Virus record (IMG/VR): IMGVR_UViG_3300010389_000089
Location: 1 to 29,573 of that record
Source of the DNA: a virus
DNA length: 29,573 nucleotides
Reading direction: 5' to 3' (one strand)
Shown: piece by piece, positions 5,195-24,031 of the stretch
How the letters are laid out: each line of letters begins with the position of its first letter
Numbering within the stretch: the first letter of the stretch is position 1
Translations under genes and position numbers: made by a program
The notes under the pieces: generated by a model
What the model saw: the letters and a program-made list of their open reading frames with translations, nothing else
What the model was told of the DNA's origin: nothing
Database searches by the model: none

Positions 5195-5519
5195 CTATTT
5201 CGACCTTTCCACCATCGGAATCCAAAACATACCACCGGAAAGCAACACTGTCAAAAACTGGCATAGAAATGTCTTCCCAGAACGGAACCTTACGCCCCCA
5301 ACCTACCGCGTCGCGCCGCACAAGCGCGTCAGACTCCATCTCACCGTTGTAACGGGCACACACAAGGATAATGTTCTGAATGTCGTTCTCCAGCACCCTA
5401 GAACCGCCCATAGCTTTATTCTTGCGGTGATGCGGCACAAGGTCCTCAGTTTGCCCACAATGCCAACAGTGAGCGTCCCGTTCACGCAAAATACGCATCA
5501 CACGTTTCGTAACAGCCAT
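5175..5519 (-). CDS. HNH endonuclease-like protein
   Basis: A 114-residue protein with the HNH signature CWHCGQ, LVPHHRKNKAMGG, then NIILVCARYNGEMESD. This is the C-x-x-C, His-His, Asn order of a small phage family; the second Cys pair of the classical zinc site is reduced to one Cys. These proteins nick or cut DNA and are often free-standing or mobile. It is coupled to the cupin gene upstream by TAATG. Confidence 0.75.
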   Translation of the reverse strand: MAVTKRVMRILRERDAHCWHCGQTEDLVPHHRKNKAMGGSRVLENDIQNIILVCARYNGEMESDALVRRDAVGWGRKVPFWEDISMPVFDSVAFRWYVLDSDGGKVEIDVGDTF

Positions 5520-5857
5520 TACAGCCCCTTATCTACCCTGCCGTAATCATCCTCAAAACGAACCACATCATTCGCGTCAATCAACCCTGAAGTGACCTCG
5601 AAAATAACCATGTCGTTCACCATTGCCGATAAACGGTGAATTTGCTCAGTATCAATATAAACCGAGTCACCAGGACCAATAAGGTACACGGTTTCCTCAA
5701 TCATTAGTTCACCGTTACCTGACTCCACAAACCAAAAATGCGATTGATTTTCGTGCAAATGTAAAGAGGTTCGTGCGCCTTCACGTAGGGTGAACTGGCT
5801 GACAACAAAATGCTCGCCCGAGAACCAGTCGTACACTTTGCCCCACGGTTTGTCCAT
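5519..5857 (-). CDS. Cupin protein, type II phosphomannose isomerase-like
   Basis: A 112-residue single-domain cupin. It begins PWGKVYDWFSG, as do the C-terminal domains of ManC-type enzymes. Motif 1 (HLHENQSHFWFVESGNG) supplies two His and possibly Glu ligands. Motif 2 (GPGDSVYIDTEQIHRL) supplies the third His. Family members act on sugar phosphates or nucleotide sugars, but isolated small cupins can bind other ligands. It may support the glycan cassette at 19.5-22.6 kb, although it lies in the early operon. The start codon lies 13 bases from a strong hairpin, with no clear Shine-Dalgarno sequence. Confidence 0.75.
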   Translation of the reverse strand: MDKPWGKVYDWFSGEHFVVSQFTLREGARTSLHLHENQSHFWFVESGNGELMIEETVYLIGPGDSVYIDTEQIHRLSAMVNDMVIFEVTSGLIDANDVVRFEDDYGRVDKGL

Positions 5858-10574: not shown

Positions 10575-11074
10575 TAGCCAGCAACCTCCATGAGAGTCAA
10601 AGTACCTTGAGTTCCTGAATCAAACGCAGTGATACTAGCCCCAGATGCCCTAATAGCCAAAGTGTATGTCGTTGCACTTGTAGTGCTGGGAGAATCCAAA
10701 AAGTTCGCAGAATGAGGATGTATCGTAATTTCATTCTGTGTTTGGCTGGAGCACATGCCAGCATTTCCATTACCAAGATTAGTTCCTGTGGCTACATCTC
10801 CTCGGAATAATGTTGAAACGCCCAGAACACCAGGACTAGCCGCGATGCTAACTGAATAAACCGCTAAAATTTTACTTGTAGCACTGCTGGGAGTGATGCT
10901 TGCTGTCAAATTTGAAGTAACAAATGAGGTTGAACTCGTGCTTGTTGTGCTTGTTCTGTTCGCAGACACGACCTGCAAGATACTCCCAGGCGCACTAAAC
11001 ACCCCACCCGTACCAGAAGCAACCGCGTTACCGTTCGAGTCCTGCCACTCATCAAAACGCATAACCGAAGCCAT
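10574..11074 (-). CDS. Tail-fibre/adhesin module, paralog C
   Basis: A 166-residue protein with the shared fibre module: ILQVVS, SITPSSATSKIL, LFRGD, NFLDSPSTTSATTYTL and the C terminus LTLMEVAG. The N-terminal 30 residues are unlike the other two paralogs. The module is beta-rich and found in distal tail proteins of environmental phages; host recognition is the likely role. ATG at 11072-11074 is fused to the previous stop (TGATG) and has GGAGG nine bases upstream. Confidence 0.7.
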   Translation of the reverse strand: MASVMRFDEWQDSNGNAVASGTGGVFSAPGSILQVVSANRTSTTSTSSTSFVTSNLTASITPSSATSKILAVYSVSIAASPGVLGVSTLFRGDVATGTNLGNGNAGMCSSQTQNEITIHPHSANFLDSPSTTSATTYTLAIRASGASITAFDSGTQGTLTLMEVAG

Positions 11075-11586
11075 CAGCCAGCCACCTCCATCACAGTAAT
11101 ACTTGAGGTTCCACCCCAAAAGGTGTCCGCAGTCCAACGATTCACATACAAACTGCCACTACTAACAAAGGCTTGTAACTTGTAAGTAAGACTAGAAACG
11201 GAACTTGGTGAATCCAAAAAGTTAATCTGACTTGTGTTGAGGTCTACTGTTGAGTTGACCCCAGGACAATATGCAACACTCACTTCCTTAGTGACAGTCG
11301 CAGTAGTTACAGAAATGTGTGTGCTGTCCCTCAGAAGATTGACTCCGAGTGAGTTACCGGCACTTGTATTCAACATCACATTAGCGAAAACCATAATTTT
11401 ACTGCTAGTCGAACTTGGAGTAATCGAAACACTCAAACCAGTTATATCGACTGGGGATGTTGAACTGCTAGTAAAGGTGTCTGTTTTTGTGGTGGACACA
11501 ACCTGCAAAATCTGTCCAGCATAAGCCGGAATCGTAGGCGCATCACCACCAAGGTCAGTGACCTCATTCACTTTGAGCAAAGACAT
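11074..11586 (-). CDS. Tail-fibre/adhesin module, paralog B
   Basis: A 170-residue protein with the same module: ILQVVSTTKTDTFTSSSTSP, SITPSSTSSKIM, LLRDST, NFLDSPSSVSSLTYKL, and ITVMEVAG at the end. Its short N terminus (MSLLKVNEVTDLGGDAP) probably attaches it to the tail. GGAGG five bases before ATG comes from the last codons of the XkdW-like gene. It lies directly before paralog C with overlapping stop and start. Confidence 0.7.
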   Translation of the reverse strand: MSLLKVNEVTDLGGDAPTIPAYAGQILQVVSTTKTDTFTSSSTSPVDITGLSVSITPSSTSSKIMVFANVMLNTSAGNSLGVNLLRDSTHISVTTATVTKEVSVAYCPGVNSTVDLNTSQINFLDSPSSVSSLTYKLQAFVSSGSLYVNRWTADTFWGGTSSITVMEVAG

Positions 11587-11850: not shown

Positions 11851-11885
11851 TAGTTGTTCTCCTTAGTCAAGTTTACGGTAAGCAT
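11850..11885 (-). CDS. 11-codon micro-ORF bridging two tail genes
   Basis: Between fibre paralog A and the XkdW-like gene a tiny ORF (MLTVNLTKENN) starts in the stop codon of A (TAATG) and ends in the start codon of the next gene (TAATG). It includes the AAGGAG ribosome site of that gene. It could carry terminating ribosomes across the gap. It may equally be chance in 36 bases. Confidence 0.25.
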   Translation of the reverse strand: MLTVNLTKENN

Positions 11886-12463
11886 TAGCCAGCCACCTCC
11901 ATCGCCGTAATAGTAAAACCAGTACGGCTATTGGTATGTGAATTATTGTCTGCATCTAGCGAGCCGCGACCAAGATAAAAAGTGCTACCCGATTGTATCG
12001 CGCCCTGCAATTTATAGGTAACGGCGGAAGTAGTATTCGGAGAGTCTAAAAATGTATAACTAACCGCCTGTCTAGGTCGGTTCGACTCGCCACCTCCGGT
12101 CCAGCCCATTGTGACCTGTCTCCGACTGCCAGCCGCCGCGCCAAGTCCAAGCGCTGTAGAGTCACGCAAAAGGTAAACGCTACTGTAGTCTAGTGCGCTC
12201 ATAGAAAAAGAGCCACTAAAAGTAATCAGCACTTTCGAGGTTGCTGAAGATGGCGTAATCGTTACTGAAGCGCCGGTAATATCAACCGGAGATTGTGAAG
12301 TCGTAGCAAAAGTATCGTCTTTGAAAGTACTTACAACCTGAATCACACTCCCAGCCGGAAGCGTAGCCCCATTCGACAAATCCAGGCTAGACCCAGACGC
12401 CACATCAATCACATAAGAATTAGCAGCCAACCCAGACAAGGTTCCAACAGTCAACTCACTCAT
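11885..12463 (-). CDS. Tail-fibre/adhesin module, paralog A
   Basis: A 192-residue protein. The N terminus (MSELTVGTLSGLAANSYVID) has the form of a fibre attachment segment. The module follows: VIQVVSTFKDDTF, TITPSSATSKVL, LLRDST, TFLDSPNTTSAVTYKL and ITAMEVAG. It is the longest of three paralogs. ATG (12461-12463) has GGAG six bases upstream and overlaps the previous stop as ATGA. It probably contributes to host binding at the tail tip. Confidence 0.7.
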   Translation of the reverse strand: MSELTVGTLSGLAANSYVIDVASGSSLDLSNGATLPAGSVIQVVSTFKDDTFATTSQSPVDITGASVTITPSSATSKVLITFSGSFSMSALDYSSVYLLRDSTALGLGAAAGSRRQVTMGWTGGGESNRPRQAVSYTFLDSPNTTSAVTYKLQGAIQSGSTFYLGRGSLDADNNSHTNSRTGFTITAMEVAG

Positions 12464-12834
12464 ACAATACTCCAAGCACTCGCAGTACCCACCGTCACAG
12501 TAGCCCCAGACGCAATCGTGACCGGACCAGCAGACACACCGTTATACCCATCCACAAAAGTGTAATTCTCGCTAATGGTGTTGAAATTAGGCTGAATAGA
12601 ATCATTCGCCACATTCCCACCACCACCGCCGGAAATCGTCGTCCACCCAGCCGTACCAGCGTAAACCTCAACACTGCCACCACCAACATACGACAACATA
12701 CCCTCAACCGGAGTACCAATCGCAGTAGCACGAGCAGCCGTACCAGCAAACGTCAAAATAGTTTGATTACCGATATAGGTATTCATATCAGCAGCAGTCA
12801 AAATCTCATTGACTTGCCAAATCTTATAGGGCAT
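12460..12834 (-). CDS. Small tail-fibre protein
   Basis: A 124-residue protein starting MPYKIWQVNEILTAADMNTY, a start common in distal tail proteins of actinophages, followed by Gly/Ala-rich, beta-type sequence with a Gly5 linker (SGGGGGN). AAGGAT lies about six bases before ATG. It is the first gene after the minor tail protein and probably links or forms part of the receptor-binding tip. Confidence 0.65.
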   Translation of the reverse strand: MPYKIWQVNEILTAADMNTYIGNQTILTFAGTAARATAIGTPVEGMLSYVGGGSVEVYAGTAGWTTISGGGGGNVANDSIQPNFNTISENYTFVDGYNGVSAGPVTIASGATVTVGTASAWSIV

Positions 12835-18524: not shown

Positions 18525-18929
18525 TTATGCGTACACGGCAACAGAAAACTCTGCCGCCATATATTCCGTATCATTCAGTTGCAGAGAGCCAACGCTGGTC
18601 ATACCTCGGACCCGACAGTCCATTGCATTTCCGCCAAGACTCCTATCTGATTCTACCGCAGTTTTGATGCTACGTTCCCCATTCTGCGACGCATACTGAT
18701 TTAGTGAGCGTTGCGAGATGCGGTCCGATTGCCTGCCCACAATCACAATAACTGTGAACATAAACGTTGTTACGCCTTGTTGAAACGCACCGTCATAGTC
18801 GATGGTTTCTAACGCAACAACAGCGGTAGGAGGGTTAGGACTATCTGGTAATTCCGCGCTTGTGCGAAGCCCAGAAATCGTTGCAAGGTTTGTGGCTATA
18901 CCTTGACGAATGGCGGTGATGTCGCTCAC
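18525..18929 (-). CDS. Tail terminator / completion protein
   Basis: A 134-residue protein between the head-tail connector and tail tube genes. The N-terminal helix and strand pattern (MSDITAIRQGIATNLATISG, then VVALETIDYDGAFQQG) fits the tail terminator family that caps the tail tube before head joining. Start is GTG at 18927-18929, overlapping the connector stop (TAGTG). The assignment rests on position and general features. Confidence 0.7.
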   Translation of the reverse strand: MSDITAIRQGIATNLATISGLRTSAELPDSPNPPTAVVALETIDYDGAFQQGVTTFMFTVIVIVGRQSDRISQRSLNQYASQNGERSIKTAVESDRSLGGNAMDCRVRGMTSVGSLQLNDTEYMAAEFSVAVYA

Positions 18930-19522
18930 TACGCCATCCTTACACGGCAGAACGGTTCAAGAAGGGTAGCAATGTCAGGGTCGATTCGTGACAACCGAAC
19001 CACGCCCATGGCGTCGAATCCGGCGACCCCCATCGGGCTATCCGCCCTACGGTAGTACCTAGCCGATTGCAAAACACAAGCTTGACGAATAGCTGTCGGT
19101 ATCGTCGCATGACCGAACACGCCAGTCACCTGCACAGTAGCCTCGCCCATGCTTGTGGGGAACCAGTAATCACCAACAGCACGAATATGATTGTAAGGAA
19201 CCTCCATGCCACCAGCGAGACCATTCAAAGGCTCCAACTGGTAATCAGTTGTAGTCCATGTTTGGTCAAACACCCCATCCAGGTTTGTTGACGTTTTCAA
19301 AGTGGTCAACGAGGTCAGGTCATCAATCTCAACATTGAAGTTATCCTGCGGTGTATAAATTCGTGTAGCGGTAGACGAAGTAAAAATACGTTCCGTGTAC
19401 TGCTCAATCTGCCGTGACGCAGCCTCAATGACAAGCTCCAGCAATGTGTCATCAACACTGTCGGTCAAATCCAGGCTTCTTTTTACCTCTGCAAGAGTAG
19501 CCAGACCATTAGTAATTGCCAC
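18929..19522 (-). CDS. Head-tail connector (gp6-like adaptor)
   Basis: A 197-residue protein with the gp6/gp15-type start (LATLAEVKRSLDLTDSVDDT, LLELVIEAASRQIEQYTERIF), in which helices pack on the portal. The remainder is a beta insertion typical of longer adaptors. The start is GTG at 19520-19522 with GGAGG six bases upstream. It follows the glycan cassette, which separates it from the capsid genes. Confidence 0.85.
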   Translation of the reverse strand: MAITNGLATLAEVKRSLDLTDSVDDTLLELVIEAASRQIEQYTERIFTSSTATRIYTPQDNFNVEIDDLTSLTTLKTSTNLDGVFDQTWTTTDYQLEPLNGLAGGMEVPYNHIRAVGDYWFPTSMGEATVQVTGVFGHATIPTAIRQACVLQSARYYRRADSPMGVAGFDAMGVVRLSRIDPDIATLLEPFCRVRMA

Positions 19523-19543: not shown

Positions 19544-20200
19544 CTATCGCGGATTATCCCACGCATTCACGCGACGCCGGTCAAGCGACCATTCACCAGA
19601 ACCATAATTTTCCGCTTGAACTTTCTTTTGATAATACACAGCATTGTTATGAAACGTTGCCGAGTTTTTACCCATCAAATTTGCATCGCTATTGATTGTT
19701 GAAGAATTATCGTGACTTGTCGGTATGTTGATTGACCGAATCTTTACGTTTTTTTCTGTGGCGCGTCTCTGATAGTCGTTATCTTCAAAATATGCCGGAT
19801 AAAGTGCTTCATCGAATAAACCGACCCTCCTGACAGCCTCTTCACCGACACAAAACGTGTGCCAGAAGGGAAACATATCAGAAAGGGTTATCTCGTCTCT
19901 ACGAGCCTCTGAGAGCCTTTGAAGGGCATTTGGTCCGTAAGTCATGTCATTTGAGGCAAAAAACCATCTATCATCGTGCGGAAACAGTTTGATACCAAGA
20001 TTCCATGACGCCGCCACCCCAAGATTGCTTGGCAGATTCAAAACACGCACATTCTTCACGAACTCAGAATGTAGAACATCGTAGAACAGTCCACCATTAT
20101 CAATAATCAGTACGTCGCGTATCGGATAGTCGATTGACTGAAACATTCTGTGCAACAAGTCATACCTATTGAGCACAGGAATTATCAGATTCGGTAACAT
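19544..20200 (-). CDS. Family 2 (GT-A) glycosyltransferase
   Basis: A 218-residue protein with a GT-A fold start (NLIIPVLNRYDLLHRMFQSI), LIIDNGG, NLPSNLGVAASWNLGI and the SND variant of the Asp-x-Asp nucleotide-sugar site (WFFASNDMTYGP). FDEALYPAYFEDNDYQRR supplies the catalytic-base region. It transfers a sugar from a nucleotide donor. ATG at 20198-20200 is fused to the methyltransferase stop (TGATG). It is the last gene of the four-gene cassette and shorter than most bacterial GT2 enzymes. Confidence 0.85.
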   Translation of the reverse strand: MLPNLIIPVLNRYDLLHRMFQSIDYPIRDVLIIDNGGLFYDVLHSEFVKNVRVLNLPSNLGVAASWNLGIKLFPHDDRWFFASNDMTYGPNALQRLSEARRDEITLSDMFPFWHTFCVGEEAVRRVGLFDEALYPAYFEDNDYQRRATEKNVKIRSINIPTSHDNSSTINSDANLMGKNSATFHNNAVYYQKKVQAENYGSGEWSLDRRRVNAWDNPR

Positions 20201-20790
20201 CACAAAAATACCGCTGACAACCGACCCCAACGTTTCACTTCATGGTCAGGCCACAACTCCCGCAACACACTATAAGCTTCAGGCACATCCTCCACAACAT
20301 AACGACCACCCTCATTCATTAAAGGTTTCATAAACTCTGCTGTGCGACGTATCGCCTCAACCTTATGCGGTCCATCATCAATGAAAACATCAGCACGAAA
20401 CTCAACCGGGAAAGGTTCGGGTGCGAAAGCGTCCCACACAAACACAAGCGGTTTATTCAAAGTGAAAGCGCCACGCGATTCCAGCCCGTCCCAATCCATA
20501 CGGTTTAGGTCAACATCAAGACCAATCACCTGAGCGTCAGGATACAAATCACACCACACCGCCAAAGAAACCCCAGTCAAAACCCCAAGCTCCACAAACA
20601 CGCGAGGATTCACGCCGGTCAGAATCTCCGCATACGCCTCACCATAATCGTTCCCCCAAGCATCAAACTTATCCGCACCCCTATTAGTAGGCACACTTGT
20701 CGGTGCATCCAAAGGTGACACAATCCTCGGCGCAGTCACTAAACCAGGGGCGAATTTTCTTTCCGCCGCGATAAGAGTTCTCGCATCCAT
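20200..20790 (-). CDS. Class I methyltransferase, CmcI / sugar O-methyltransferase-like
   Basis: A 196-residue protein. RVFVELGVLTGVSLAVWCDL is SAM motif I, AQVIGLDVDLNRMD holds the acidic ribose-binding end, VFIDDGPHKVEAIR and GGRYVVEDVPEAY match the CmcI/macrocin-type enzymes (metal-binding Asp and Asp-Asp-x-x-His). Family members methylate hydroxyl groups of sugars. The cassette position suggests it methylates the glycan built by the two glycosyltransferases. TAATG links it to the preceding gene. Confidence 0.75.
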   Translation of the reverse strand: MDARTLIAAERKFAPGLVTAPRIVSPLDAPTSVPTNRGADKFDAWGNDYGEAYAEILTGVNPRVFVELGVLTGVSLAVWCDLYPDAQVIGLDVDLNRMDWDGLESRGAFTLNKPLVFVWDAFAPEPFPVEFRADVFIDDGPHKVEAIRRTAEFMKPLMNEGGRYVVEDVPEAYSVLRELWPDHEVKRWGRLSAVFL

Positions 20791-21431
20791 TACATACCCC
20801 CAAACGTGTGACCCTCAAGATGCAGATTCACAAACGGATTCAACGAATAAGTATTCACACCATAAGTATCTTTCAACCAATCCCGCATCAAAGCCAAATG
20901 ACGGTTCCACACCACAAAAGAACGTTGCGTCGCATTAGGGTACTTTGAAAAGTTCACATCATTATCAAGCGTTCCACAATCCACACCAACAAGCACAATG
21001 TTCTTCGCCCCCACATAAGCAGCCAAGTGCATTGACCCGTGAACACTCGAAGAACCAAACACAAGCTGGTGTGCGTGAGCCGGTTTGTCATGCCCAAACG
21101 GGTCAAACTTGTCGTGACTGTTCTTCACAGTTTTCGGGTCGTGAACTATCACATTCTCCGGCGGATTAGACCACTGATTAGTTGTCGGATAGTCGTAACG
21201 GTTCACAACAAACACAGTGTCAGGATTATCGTCAACGAAACCATGAAAACGTGGGTGGTGGTGAGTAAAACCATAATTCGGTTTGATACCAAAATGTATA
21301 GCACCAGCGTTAGTGGCAATCGTCAGTTTGTCTTTGAAGAAATCGGGCGACAAATAATTCAATGTTGCGCCAGAACCAAACACCCAGGCTGTATCACCGA
21401 CATGACGGTTCTGAATGTCCATCAACAACAT
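20790..21431 (-). CDS. MptE / DUF115-like protein
   Basis: A protein of about 213 residues starting VGDTAWVFGSGATLNYLSP, LTIATNAGAIHFGIKPNYGFTHH, and later NIVLVGVDCG. The pattern GxGxTL and TN... fits the 6-hydroxymethylpterin diphosphokinase MptE-like/DUF115 group, related to sialyltransferase-like and flagellin-glycosylation proteins. In this setting a glycan-transfer or sugar-modification role is likely. Start at ATG 21429-21431 (TAATG with the upstream gene); a second ATG nine bases on is possible. Confidence 0.7.
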   Translation of the reverse strand: MLLMDIQNRHVGDTAWVFGSGATLNYLSPDFFKDKLTIATNAGAIHFGIKPNYGFTHHHPRFHGFVDDNPDTVFVVNRYDYPTTNQWSNPPENVIVHDPKTVKNSHDKFDPFGHDKPAHAHQLVFGSSSVHGSMHLAAYVGAKNIVLVGVDCGTLDNDVNFSKYPNATQRSFVVWNRHLALMRDWLKDTYGVNTYSLNPFVNLHLEGHTFGGM

Positions 21432-22642
21432 TAGACAAATTCTTTCCTGAGTAAAGGCATCCAGTCTCGCTTCCACACAGTCTCAACATCAAAATCCTTA
21501 GCGAACTTAACCGAAACATCCGACCTCGTTTTACCCTTTTGGTAAGCCGCCTCTAAAGCCTCCGCAATCTGCGAAATAGAAGGCACCTTCCACCAAGAAC
21601 TTTGACCAGCATCCCAAGTTGGCATACCCTCAACCAACCAGCCATCATCAGATACCAAATCTTGTGAAGCAGCCCAGTTAGAAGCAATCGCCCTAGTTCC
21701 ACAAGCCTGAGCTTCAATCGTCGGCACACCAAAACCTTCACCCATGCTCGGAGCCAATAGAACATCCATTGCCGTGTAATACGCTGCCAAATCCTCCTGC
21801 TTAGACCCATAACGGTACTCGACAGGATTAACCATGACAACAGCTTCCGGTGGCACATCCAACGACTTCAACAACTCCAACAAATTCCAACCAATGCCGG
21901 AACCAGTCACATCGGTATGCAAATACAACACAGTGTCAGGATGCTTACGATGCAAAATACTAAAAGCGGTTAAATTCTCGCTGAATGCTTTACGGTGCAC
22001 AAGCCCAGACGCTTTATTTGCGGCAACCATACCCACAACAAACTTGTCCTTGCTTTTGAAATAATCCACAACATTCATGCCGTTGCTTAAAGTCCACGTT
22101 TCTTTCAAAACCTTCGTGTCAATACCGTGAGGTATATACACGTTATCTATATCTTTCTCATGCATTTGACGTTGACCAAAAGGCGACATTGAAATAGGCA
22201 ACACGTTGGGTCGTGTCAACCAACGCTCAACACCCTTAGGCATCACAATATGGTCCAGTGGTGTCCAAGACCAAATACTCTGAAACTTCTCATAATGTGG
22301 GGACTCCAGTACCCACACGTCATACAAAGTAAAAAACACATCCTTAGCGTGCTTGACCGAATTCGTAAACATCATGTGGTCAAGTGGTGCAGTGTCCTGC
22401 GAATAAGGACTGAAGCTACGCGGAAAATGCTGAGCCGGACCATGCGGTGTCTGAATAACCGAACGTTGACCCTCAAGACCAAAGTTAGAAATGTTAGCCA
22501 CATCAAGACCATGGCGAACCAGACGGTCAATCATGTACTTGACCTGTTGACCATAACCCGTAGGTGCATCATACGAGTTAGAGAAAACACTAAACGTGCC
22601 GGTGAATTGTTCTTTTAGAGCTGGGTTTCCCTTTTTCGACAT
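21431..22642 (-). CDS. Family 4 (GT-B) glycosyltransferase
   Basis: A 403-residue protein. N-terminal Rossmann half: FSVFSNSYDAPTGYGQQVKY. C-terminal donor half: VGMVAANKASG, then PSMGEGFGVPTIEAQACGT, the EX7E motif of GT4 retaining enzymes (Glu-x7-Glu over EGFGVPTIE). It transfers a sugar to a glycan or protein. It opens the cassette behind a candidate promoter and after the capsid terminator; ATG at 22640-22642 has GAGG only two bases away, so initiation may be weak or leaderless. Confidence 0.88.
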   Translation of the reverse strand: MSKKGNPALKEQFTGTFSVFSNSYDAPTGYGQQVKYMIDRLVRHGLDVANISNFGLEGQRSVIQTPHGPAQHFPRSFSPYSQDTAPLDHMMFTNSVKHAKDVFFTLYDVWVLESPHYEKFQSIWSWTPLDHIVMPKGVERWLTRPNVLPISMSPFGQRQMHEKDIDNVYIPHGIDTKVLKETWTLSNGMNVVDYFKSKDKFVVGMVAANKASGLVHRKAFSENLTAFSILHRKHPDTVLYLHTDVTGSGIGWNLLELLKSLDVPPEAVVMVNPVEYRYGSKQEDLAAYYTAMDVLLAPSMGEGFGVPTIEAQACGTRAIASNWAASQDLVSDDGWLVEGMPTWDAGQSSWWKVPSISQIAEALEAAYQKGKTRSDVSVKFAKDFDVETVWKRDWMPLLRKEFV

Positions 22643-22650
22643 AGCCTCAT

Positions 22651-22678
22651 ACTATACAAAAGAGAAGGGCCGGAGCAA
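22651..22678 (-). promoter_or_regulatory. Candidate promoter for the glycan cassette, inside a terminator
   Basis: On the minus strand TTGCTC (22673-22678), 16 bases and TATAGT (22651-22656), eight bases before the ATG of the GT4 gene. The -35 overlaps the loop and right arm of the capsid terminator. The -10 is strong and the -35 moderate. Confidence 0.45.
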
Positions 22679-22694
22679 CCCACAACTCCGGCCC
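22667..22694 (-). terminator. Intrinsic terminator after the major capsid gene
   Basis: GGGCCGGAG pairs perfectly with CTCCGGCCC across a 10-base loop. On the minus strand the stem is followed by TTCTCTTTTGT. It lies 19 bases after the capsid stop and separates capsid from the glycan cassette. Confidence 0.85.
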
Positions 22695-22713
22695 TTCGGC
22701 TTTGCGTCTAGTA

Positions 22714-23871
22714 CTAGGCAGCGTTTCCGATGAAGTACTTGACGTGACCTGCGTGAGTCAGGTCTCCATCCACGCGCATCAGGAACCGGTAGTAGGTCAG
22801 GTCCTGGTTGAAGGCGTAGTCGGTGGAGGTAGCAACCTGAAGACCGCCAGCCATACGCACCTTGAACGACGGGATGTGTCCAAAGATGACGCTCTTGGCA
22901 GAAAGACCCTGAGCTGCCATTGCCGGGTTCTCCAAGATGGGGAATCCAGCGAAGGTGTCAGGCTGTCCAACGCCAACCTGGTACAGGTACTGTCCAGAGT
23001 TGTCCTTCAGCTTACGCATTGCGCCGAGCGAAGCGGTGTTAGCCATGTAAGCAACACCAGGCAGGCGGCGAGCTGCACCGTCAAGGCTGTAAGCCAAGTC
23101 GATGAGGTTGTCAGCGGTGAACGCACCAGTAACGGCGGTTCCACCAGTGATACCAGAACCAGCAGCGGTAACAATACCCTTAGGCTTGCTGCTTCCGTCA
23201 CCCGTGGTGAGGACGTCGTTAACGGTGTAACCGATAGCGTTACCAGCGGCTTCAGCGATAACACCTGCGATGTCGAATCCAGCGTCTGCGAGCAGCTCGT
23301 TGGAAATCGGCACGAGGAATGCGTACTTGTAAGCACCAAGAGTGATGCTGGAGAAGGTCGGGTCGCTTTCAGCGATTGCAGAACCTTCAGTACGGAGCGA
23401 AGCAGTGCTGTAAGCGGTCAGCGTCGGGATGGTGATGTCCTCACCCGAAGTCGTGTTGATGATTTCGGGAGCGTCAAGCATCGGTCCGACGAGACGAGCA
23501 ACCTGGAACACCTGGTCGTAGAACGACTTGGGAACCGTGTTGGTTGAGCTTACGAGAGTGCGCTGCTCGAAGTTGTGAGAACGCATCTCACCGTGAGCAA
23601 TGGCGCGAAGGATGTCGCTGTCGCTACGCTCTTCCTGAGAAGGAACGTACCCGCGAGAAGCCTCAGCAGCCTCCATTTTGCGCTCTTCCTGACGCTGAGC
23701 AGCGGCGATGATTTCGTCAGCGCTGCGAATCTCAGCTTCGAGAGCGTCAATCTTTCCTTTAGCCTCAGCGTCAAGCCCACCGCGCTCCTCAGCAACATCC
23801 AGGGTCTCCTGAATCTGTCCGACGAGGTTTGCGCGGAGTTCTTGCTGAGTCTTAATCAAAGATTCAGACAA
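22714..23871 (-). CDS. Major capsid protein, HK97 fold
   Basis: A 385-residue protein. The N-terminal ~90 residues form an acidic coiled coil (scaffold-like delta domain). The HK97 fold begins near VSSTNTVPKSFYDQVFQVAR and includes FLVPISNELLADAG, VLTTGDGSSKPKGIV and the C-terminal YRFLMRVDGDLTHAGHV strand. The delta domain is normally removed by the prohead protease, probably just before the fold (inference). I place the start at TTG 23869-23871 because AAGGAG is six bases upstream; an ATG nine codons further up has none. Terminators lie on both sides. Confidence 0.93.
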   Translation of the reverse strand: MSESLIKTQQELRANLVGQIQETLDVAEERGGLDAEAKGKIDALEAEIRSADEIIAAAQRQEERKMEAAEASRGYVPSQEERSDSDILRAIAHGEMRSHNFEQRTLVSSTNTVPKSFYDQVFQVARLVGPMLDAPEIINTTSGEDITIPTLTAYSTASLRTEGSAIAESDPTFSSITLGAYKYAFLVPISNELLADAGFDIAGVIAEAAGNAIGYTVNDVLTTGDGSSKPKGIVTAAGSGITGGTAVTGAFTADNLIDLAYSLDGAARRLPGVAYMANTASLGAMRKLKDNSGQYLYQVGVGQPDTFAGFPILENPAMAAQGLSAKSVIFGHIPSFKVRMAGGLQVATSTDYAFNQDLTYYRFLMRVDGDLTHAGHVKYFIGNAA

Positions 23872-24031
23872 TTTATTCTCCTTGTTAGTGATTATCATTA
23901 TCAGTCGCGCTGACGCAGACTTAAATTACGGCGGTGTTGACACTCAACCGTTACTTTAATTCTACCGAATCACTGCACAATAAAGAAAAGACCCTCCCAG
24001 GGAAAGGGGGAAAACTGGGAGGGGAAACCCG
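23872..24031 (-). promoter_or_regulatory. Capsid upstream region with terminator and small palindrome
   Basis: This 160-base gap holds an intrinsic terminator at 23992-24023, a perfect GTTGA-CAC-TCAAC inverted repeat (23936-23948), and the capsid ribosome site. Possible -10s (TAGAAT near 23957-23962) have weak -35 partners. A separate capsid promoter is likely because a terminator stands just before it. Confidence 0.35.
23992..24023 (-). terminator. Intrinsic terminator before the capsid gene
   Basis: CCCTCCCAG and CTGGGAGGG form a 9-bp perfect stem around 14 bases. On the minus strand it is followed by TCTTTTCTTTATT. It lies nine bases after the 66-residue gene's stop. Confidence 0.85.

Follow-up and report, generated by a model that had tools for sequence, protein, structure and literature searches.

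A glycosyltransferase cassette beside the capsid gene of an aquatic phage lineage and its probable role in virion glycosylation

Introduction

Why would a phage place sugar-transferring enzymes among the genes for its own particle, and what do such enzymes modify? This question is raised by a 29,573-nucleotide stretch of DNA from a single virus, IMG/VR record IMGVR_UViG_3300010389_000089 (hereafter the window, meaning the whole stretch analysed). Its minus strand carries a siphophage late module comprising the small and large terminase, portal, protease, capsid, cassette, connector, tail terminator, major tail protein and tape measure genes. The cassette in question consists of four minus-strand genes, predicted to encode a glycosyltransferase of family 4 (GT4), an MptE-like protein, a methyltransferase and a glycosyltransferase of family 2 (GT2), flanked by an HK97-type capsid gene and a gp6-like connector gene. 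The initial annotation of the DNA had described these genes, their coordinates and position, and their overlapping stop and start codons (TAATG between GT4 and the MptE-like gene, TAATG between the latter and the methyltransferase, and TGATG between the methyltransferase and GT2), all of which were recovered here. The cassette and its two flanking genes are as follows:

22714–23898, minus strand: major capsid protein, HK97 type, upstream flank (PF05065, 3.8e-54)
21431–22642, minus strand: GT4 glycosyltransferase, 403 residues (PF13692, 7.5e-12; PF00534, 9.2e-11; phrog_2170, 9.7e-37)
20790–21431, minus strand: MptE-like (DUF115-type) protein, 213 residues, start overlapping the GT4 stop (PF01973, 6.1e-8)
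20200–20790, minus strand: predicted CmcI/MycE-type O-methyltransferase, 196 residues, start overlapping the stop of the MptE-like gene
19544–20200, minus strand: GT2 glycosyltransferase, 218 residues (PF00535, 2.9e-6; phrog_29879, 9.3e-59)
18929–19522, minus strand: gp6-like head-tail connector, downstream flank, with a Shine-Dalgarno sequence (PF05135, 5.2e-8)

With a rough probability of 0.68, we propose that the cassette glycosylates a protein of its own virion and O-methylates the added sugar, a reading that does not choose between capsid and tail. It is strengthened by deep synteny with the capsid and connector genes, by the lack of thymidylate-synthase-type and integrase or recombinase genes, and by the precedent of mycobacteriophage Che8.

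Conservation of the Capsid-Connector Interval

The capsid-connector intervals of related phages were surveyed, as the initial annotation had suggested. When loci were fetched with the capsid protein only, GT4 was found downstream of the capsid gene in 71 of 72 testable relatives (those with enough flanking sequence, some loci repeating one contig) and within 700 nucleotides in 70; the single exception has only a partial capsid match (35%). Pooling of GT4 and capsid queries yielded 81 intervals that span the whole distance from capsid to connector. Every one of them contains GT4, followed by variable gene sets:

24 of 81 intervals: GT2 and a cytidylyltransferase
13 of 81: no further gene
10 of 81: MptE-like gene and GT2
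6 of 81: TOD1-type glycosyltransferase and GT2
5 of 81: two proteins, C7 and C8, glycosyltransferase-like by eye and without a Pfam match
5 of 81: GT2 and a methyltransferase of a separate family, C4
Rarer sets: with GT17, UDP-glucose/GDP-mannose dehydrogenase or epimerase

Every interval gene with a Pfam match is related to sugar, nucleotide-sugar or methyl transfer. Most of the loci retrieved by an independent query, made with the MptE alignment, are arranged capsid-GT4-MptE-GT2-connector, and their capsid identities reach as low as about 42%. Judging from gene order, GT4-MptE-GT2 is a common cassette of the lineage, recurring in dozens of aquatic phage contigs, and the cassette of the window does not look like a chance arrangement, because the same order is kept in dozens of contigs. 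The combination had been thought unusual; this applies to the window's methyltransferase, which is unique among the fetched relatives, and not to GT4-MptE-GT2, which is common, nor to the presence of a methyltransferase domain, which Che8 already has.

Two features of the surveyed intervals are recorded for their own sake. The commonest partner of GT4-GT2, in 24 intervals (for example L037), is a small cytidylyltransferase (CTP_transf_like, 2.3e-16), hinting that the phages bearing it use a decoration activated by cytidine diphosphate, perhaps glycerol-phosphate. The C4 methyltransferase gene is antisense within an otherwise co-directional late module in two loci, L002 (8162-8680) and L035, and sense in other relatives.

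At capsid identities of 32-38%, GT4 still adjoins the capsid gene in contigs of metagenome-assembled genomes binned as Steroidobacteraceae, Pirellulales and Chloroflexi. Phage phiC31 (capsid 33%) and similarly more distant capsid relatives lack GT4, which was therefore gained within the lineage or lost outside it. Among isolates, Pontimonas phage phiPsal1 (MG835450) comes closest, and a phage contig whose GT4 is 73% identical to that of the window was binned with an uncultured Microbacteriaceae genome. The hosts are thus likely Microbacteriaceae-like, as far as bins, which can hold contaminants, may be trusted, and the virus is one of aquatic bacteria, probably actinobacteria.

Constant and Exchanged Genes

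After removal of duplicate contigs, pairwise protein identities were correlated with capsid identity, giving coefficients (r) of 0.80 for GT4, 0.77 for the connector, 0.64 for GT2 and 0.51 for MptE. Among pairs with capsid identity of at least 90%, GT4 never falls below 60% identity and MptE does so in 30%. The nearest relative of the window illustrates this pattern: its GT4 is 92% and its connector 96% identical, but its MptE is only 46% identical and it lacks the methyltransferase. Conversely, the window MptE shares 74% identity with its counterpart in a phage whose capsid identity is just 52%. On these comparisons GT4 appears to be the core gene of the cassette in this lineage, the remaining genes varying and being exchanged, which looks like a constant first enzyme combined with exchangeable enzymes for outer sugars.

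Predicted Functions of the Four Enzymes

The assignment of both glycosyltransferases was upheld, with scores above the Pfam cut-offs. For GT4, PF13692 reaches 46.1 bits (cut-off 27) and PF00534 is likewise above its cut-off; the EX7E motif corresponds to E302 and E310, each of which 95% or more of 142 distinct relatives retain. Comparison with the nearest relative gives a low ratio of nonsynonymous to synonymous substitution rates (dN/dS, 0.05), a sign of purifying selection. GT2 scores 27.8 bits for PF00535 (cut-off 23.3), weakly resembles rhamnosyltransferases (TIGR01556, 1.5e-4), and also shows a low dN/dS of 0.13 against the nearest relative.

The MptE-like protein was read differently. 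Its PF01973 score (33.1 bits) lies just under the cut-off of 34.6, and a match to the sialyltransferase family phrog_4603 was detected (2.1e-4). An AlphaFold model built from an alignment of ten relatives, with a mean predicted local distance difference test (pLDDT) score of 78.6, was compared with solved structures. Foldseek listed the MptE kinase of M. jannaschii first and the CstII sialyltransferases next. In VIA-align, the top match was Maf (5mu5; Z 13.5, 178 residues, root mean square deviation 3.6), a flagellin glycosyltransferase, followed by MptE (8sd5) with Z 13.0 and CstI/CstII with Z about 10. The model thus predicts a Maf/GT42/MptE superfamily fold, in common with Maf, the GT42 enzymes CstI and CstII and the pterin pyrophosphokinase MptE, at a sequence identity of only 13-18%. 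Since the Maf and MptE scores are tied, the modeled fold by itself would not choose between transferase and kinase. In the fetched loci, the gene is nearly always accompanied by sugar genes, and because of this near-constant company the protein is probably a Maf/GT42-type sugar transferase, not the pterin enzyme that its name implies. In a separate 42.8-kb phage contig (locus L212, 3943-9676), a glycine-rich tail-fibre-like gene and a peptidase-like gene precede a group of putative glycosyltransferase-like genes that includes an MptE-like gene, and a related capsid gene is absent from the stretch examined.

The methyltransferase matches Pfam families below their cut-offs (Methyltransf_24, 0.0011; RMNT_CmcI, 0.0051). 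Its nearest solved structures by phmmer are CmcI (4.3e-5), MycE (0.0012) and demethylmacrocin O-methyltransferase (0.019), the last two being sugar O-methyltransferases. In the alignment with CmcI, the FIDD and VVED motifs of the window fall on D160, E186 and D187, presumably the Mg2+ ligands of CmcI. By homology and by these Asp and Glu-Asp positions, the protein is predicted to be a CmcI/MycE-type Mg2+-dependent O-methyltransferase; a single-sequence structural model was poor (pLDDT 39.5). Alone among the four cassette genes, it lacks relatives in the fetched loci: none was found in IMG/VR by peptide pattern, in about 220 fetched loci or in six tested records. The only matches, both weak, were in mycobacteriophages MaryV and EniyanLRS (33%), outside their structural genes.

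Promoter and Hairpin Ahead of the Cassette

The interval between the capsid gene and GT4, together with the first GT4 codons, contains three short elements:

22664–22697, minus strand: terminator-like hairpin with a 13-bp stem and the loop TGTGGGTT at 22677-22684
22649–22654, minus strand: -10-like box TAGTAT, 6 nucleotides before the GT4 ATG, a predicted leaderless-type promoter
22622–22627, minus strand: AACCCA within early codons of GT4, able to form six pairs with the hairpin loop

Both the terminator and the candidate promoter had been placed ahead of the cassette from the window itself, and comparison across relatives bears them out. A strong hairpin is present in all 119 distinct capsid-GT4 intergenic sequences, mostly with stems of 13-18 perfect pairs. 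There are 75 different 5' arms with intact stems, and therefore pairing is kept while the sequence changes. The promoter region of the window reads TAGTAT-GAGGCT-ATG, and in all but one of 109 distinct loci (108) a TANNNT box stands 6 or 7 nucleotides ahead of the GT4 start. At the same spacing such a box precedes 0-23% of other genes, and shuffled sequences lead one to expect it, for each spacing, in about 3 loci out of 114. A Shine-Dalgarno sequence accompanies the GT4 start in none of the 109 loci, compared with 83% of capsid and 93% of tail-tube genes. GT4 therefore appears to be preceded by a conserved candidate promoter of leaderless type. It was this comparison that revealed the box; a generic sigma-70 scan of the window gave no promoter match ahead of GT4, and an Rfam scan of the window gave no match.

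Because hairpin and promoter occur together, the cassette would not simply be read through with the capsid gene; a second transcript probably starts at the cassette and continues through the connector and tail genes. Plain late co-expression with the capsid gene, from which virion decoration had been argued, is thus not borne out, given the conserved hairpin between them and the cassette's own conserved promoter. Virion decoration remains the best reading, now supported by synteny, with its basis in late co-expression weakened.

Complementarity links the hairpin loop, often TGTAGGTT, to the first GT4 codons, often AACCTAC, and the two covary (TCTAGGTT with AACCTAGA, CGTAGGTT with AACCTACG, and TGCAGGTT with AACCTGC). 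Across 49 clusters represented by one sequence each, the mean longest complement is 6.31, compared with 4.98 in 1000 permutations (standard deviation 0.17, maximum 5.47). With nine clusters at the loosest threshold the values are 6.73 and 4.68 (standard deviation 0.56, maximum 7.00), the signal being weaker at such depth, and in the window itself the complementarity amounts to six pairs only. It could reflect pairing of RNA or an inverted repeat or operator in DNA; few further copies of the loop motif were found, which makes a global operator a less likely explanation.

What the Cassette Modifies

Under the proposed virion glycosylation, GT4, as the constant enzyme, would probably place the first or core sugar on the acceptor. 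Further residues would be added by GT2 and by the MptE-like protein, the latter perhaps adding an acidic sugar, judging by its fold, and the methyltransferase would then cap a sugar hydroxyl. Action on a virion protein, the order of addition and the donors are the parts of this scheme that we infer. Given the mycobacteriophage precedent, the capsid and tail tube would be the likeliest acceptors.

Several observations weigh against this proposal. With 13% Ser/Thr, the capsid C-terminus is not rich in these residues and shows no C-terminal Ser/Thr acceptor site of the mycobacteriophage kind; that of the tail tube is rich in them (37%), which is not diagnostic. Partial correlations of identities do not prefer the capsid as partner (GT4 with connector, 0.58; with capsid, 0.39), and no acceptor is singled out. 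Since the cassette seems to have a promoter of its own, its expression together with the capsid gene cannot be taken for granted. Furthermore, genes at such a position could still modify the host envelope.

Modification of host cell-wall polysaccharide during infection, which would block superinfection or the adsorption of progeny to debris, is the first alternative, and we regard it as unlikely. Hosts of the Pontimonas type appear to possess wall oligosaccharides based on polyrhamnose, along with many glycosyltransferases for the wall (PMC6106888); GT2 has a weak likeness to rhamnosyltransferases, and a role of this kind has been proposed for glycosyltransferases of freshwater actinophages (PMC10202952). 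Yet a cell-surface function does not predict a capsid-gene linkage that stays fixed down to 32% capsid identity. Temperate conversion was rejected: neither a tyrosine integrase nor a serine recombinase was found in the window or in phiPsal1, and hence little benefit would come from lasting conversion.

It is quite improbable that the glycan is destined for some other phage or host protein or a lipid carrier, the capsid-connector site being a tolerated insertion hotspot with no link to the virion. The variable content and size of the interval are what a hotspot would give, and the partial correlations, with no preference for capsid over connector, point the same way; left unexplained, however, are the presence of GT4 with a conserved promoter in nearly all testable relatives and the restriction of the other Pfam-matching genes to sugar or methyl transfer. 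Glycosylation of hypermodified phage DNA bases against host nucleases, a known role of some phage glycosyltransferases that has also been proposed for freshwater actinophages (PMC10202952), is very hard to credit and was rejected, as no thymidylate-synthase-type gene was found in the window or the complete phiPsal1 genome, the annotated phiPsal1 genes include no base-modification gene except a DNA methylase, and the cassette sits in the structural module and not among replication genes.

Implications

The new parts of the picture are the capsid linkage, the MptE/Maf-like gene, the exchange of alleles and the promoter architecture. The glycosylation of virions by phages has been demonstrated chiefly for mycobacteriophages, whose particles it protects from antibodies (PMC12363180, PMC11256854). 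The gene order described here points to virion glycosylation as a core trait of a large aquatic phage lineage that does not meet antibodies; in such a setting the glycan would serve something else, such as adsorption, decoys or particle stability. For freshwater actinophages, the authors who described them ascribed glycosyltransferases of this kind to the modification of DNA or the wall (PMC10202952); the fixed capsid-gene link argues for the virion as target.

A further proposal, which we advance tentatively and consider doubtful as a whole, is that the locus acts as a capsid-linked "virion serotype" locus of this aquatic lineage. A fixed, protein-directed GT4 and swapped genes for outer sugars would give near-identical particles different glycans, the cassette having its own leaderless promoter and the terminator loop pairing with the start of the GT4 message, so that glycosylation would be coupled to capsid transcription. 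If so, some selective force different from immune shielding would be needed in waters without antibodies.

Other Genes of the Window

Two neighbouring genes (11074-11586 and 11885-12475) both match the C-terminal part of the tail-fibre family phrog_6942, which suggests duplicated or exchangeable fibre tips. The gene at 5519-5857 weakly matches phrog_7851 (2.2e-6), a phage family annotated as cysteine dioxygenase, and is among the few window genes other than GT4 with a TANNNT box at leaderless spacing.

Comparison with Known Systems

Cyanophage S-CBS4 and Microcystis phage Mae-JY09 carry GT4-type genes with GT2, methyltransferase or epimerase genes beside head genes, but their similarity to the window is weak (34-35%), they belong to different phage lineages, and the S-CBS4 cassette sits between portal and head genes. 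Phage phiPsal1, called lytic by its authors and since lost (PMC6106888), has the same genome plan as the window, its capsid and neck genes flanking GT4 (49%), a methyltransferase and GT2 (51%). It lacks the MptE-like gene, and its methyltransferase belongs to family C4 and is annotated antisense.

In mycobacteriophages, virion glycosylation cassettes are described for Che8 (gp108-gp110), Corndog (gp38) and Myrna (Freeman et al. 2023, as cited in PMC12363180 and PMC11256854). According to the two citing papers, virion glycosylation is experimentally shown for Che8, gp108-110 lie near genes tied to the demonstrated capsid glycosylation, and gp110 is named as essential. These genes follow one another in overlapping order as GT2 with Methyltransf_24, GT2, and GT25. 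The Che8 cassette lies at the far genome end and not beside the capsid gene, its host is Mycobacterium, and it contains neither GT4 nor an MptE-like gene, which the window has in place of a GT25 match. Of the Che8 families, GT2 is matched in the window at the Pfam level. Common to both are adjacent phage-encoded glycosyltransferases in overlapping genes and Methyltransf_24, the domain of gp108 and the family that the window methyltransferase weakly matches. By composition, the window cassette would work like the Che8 system.

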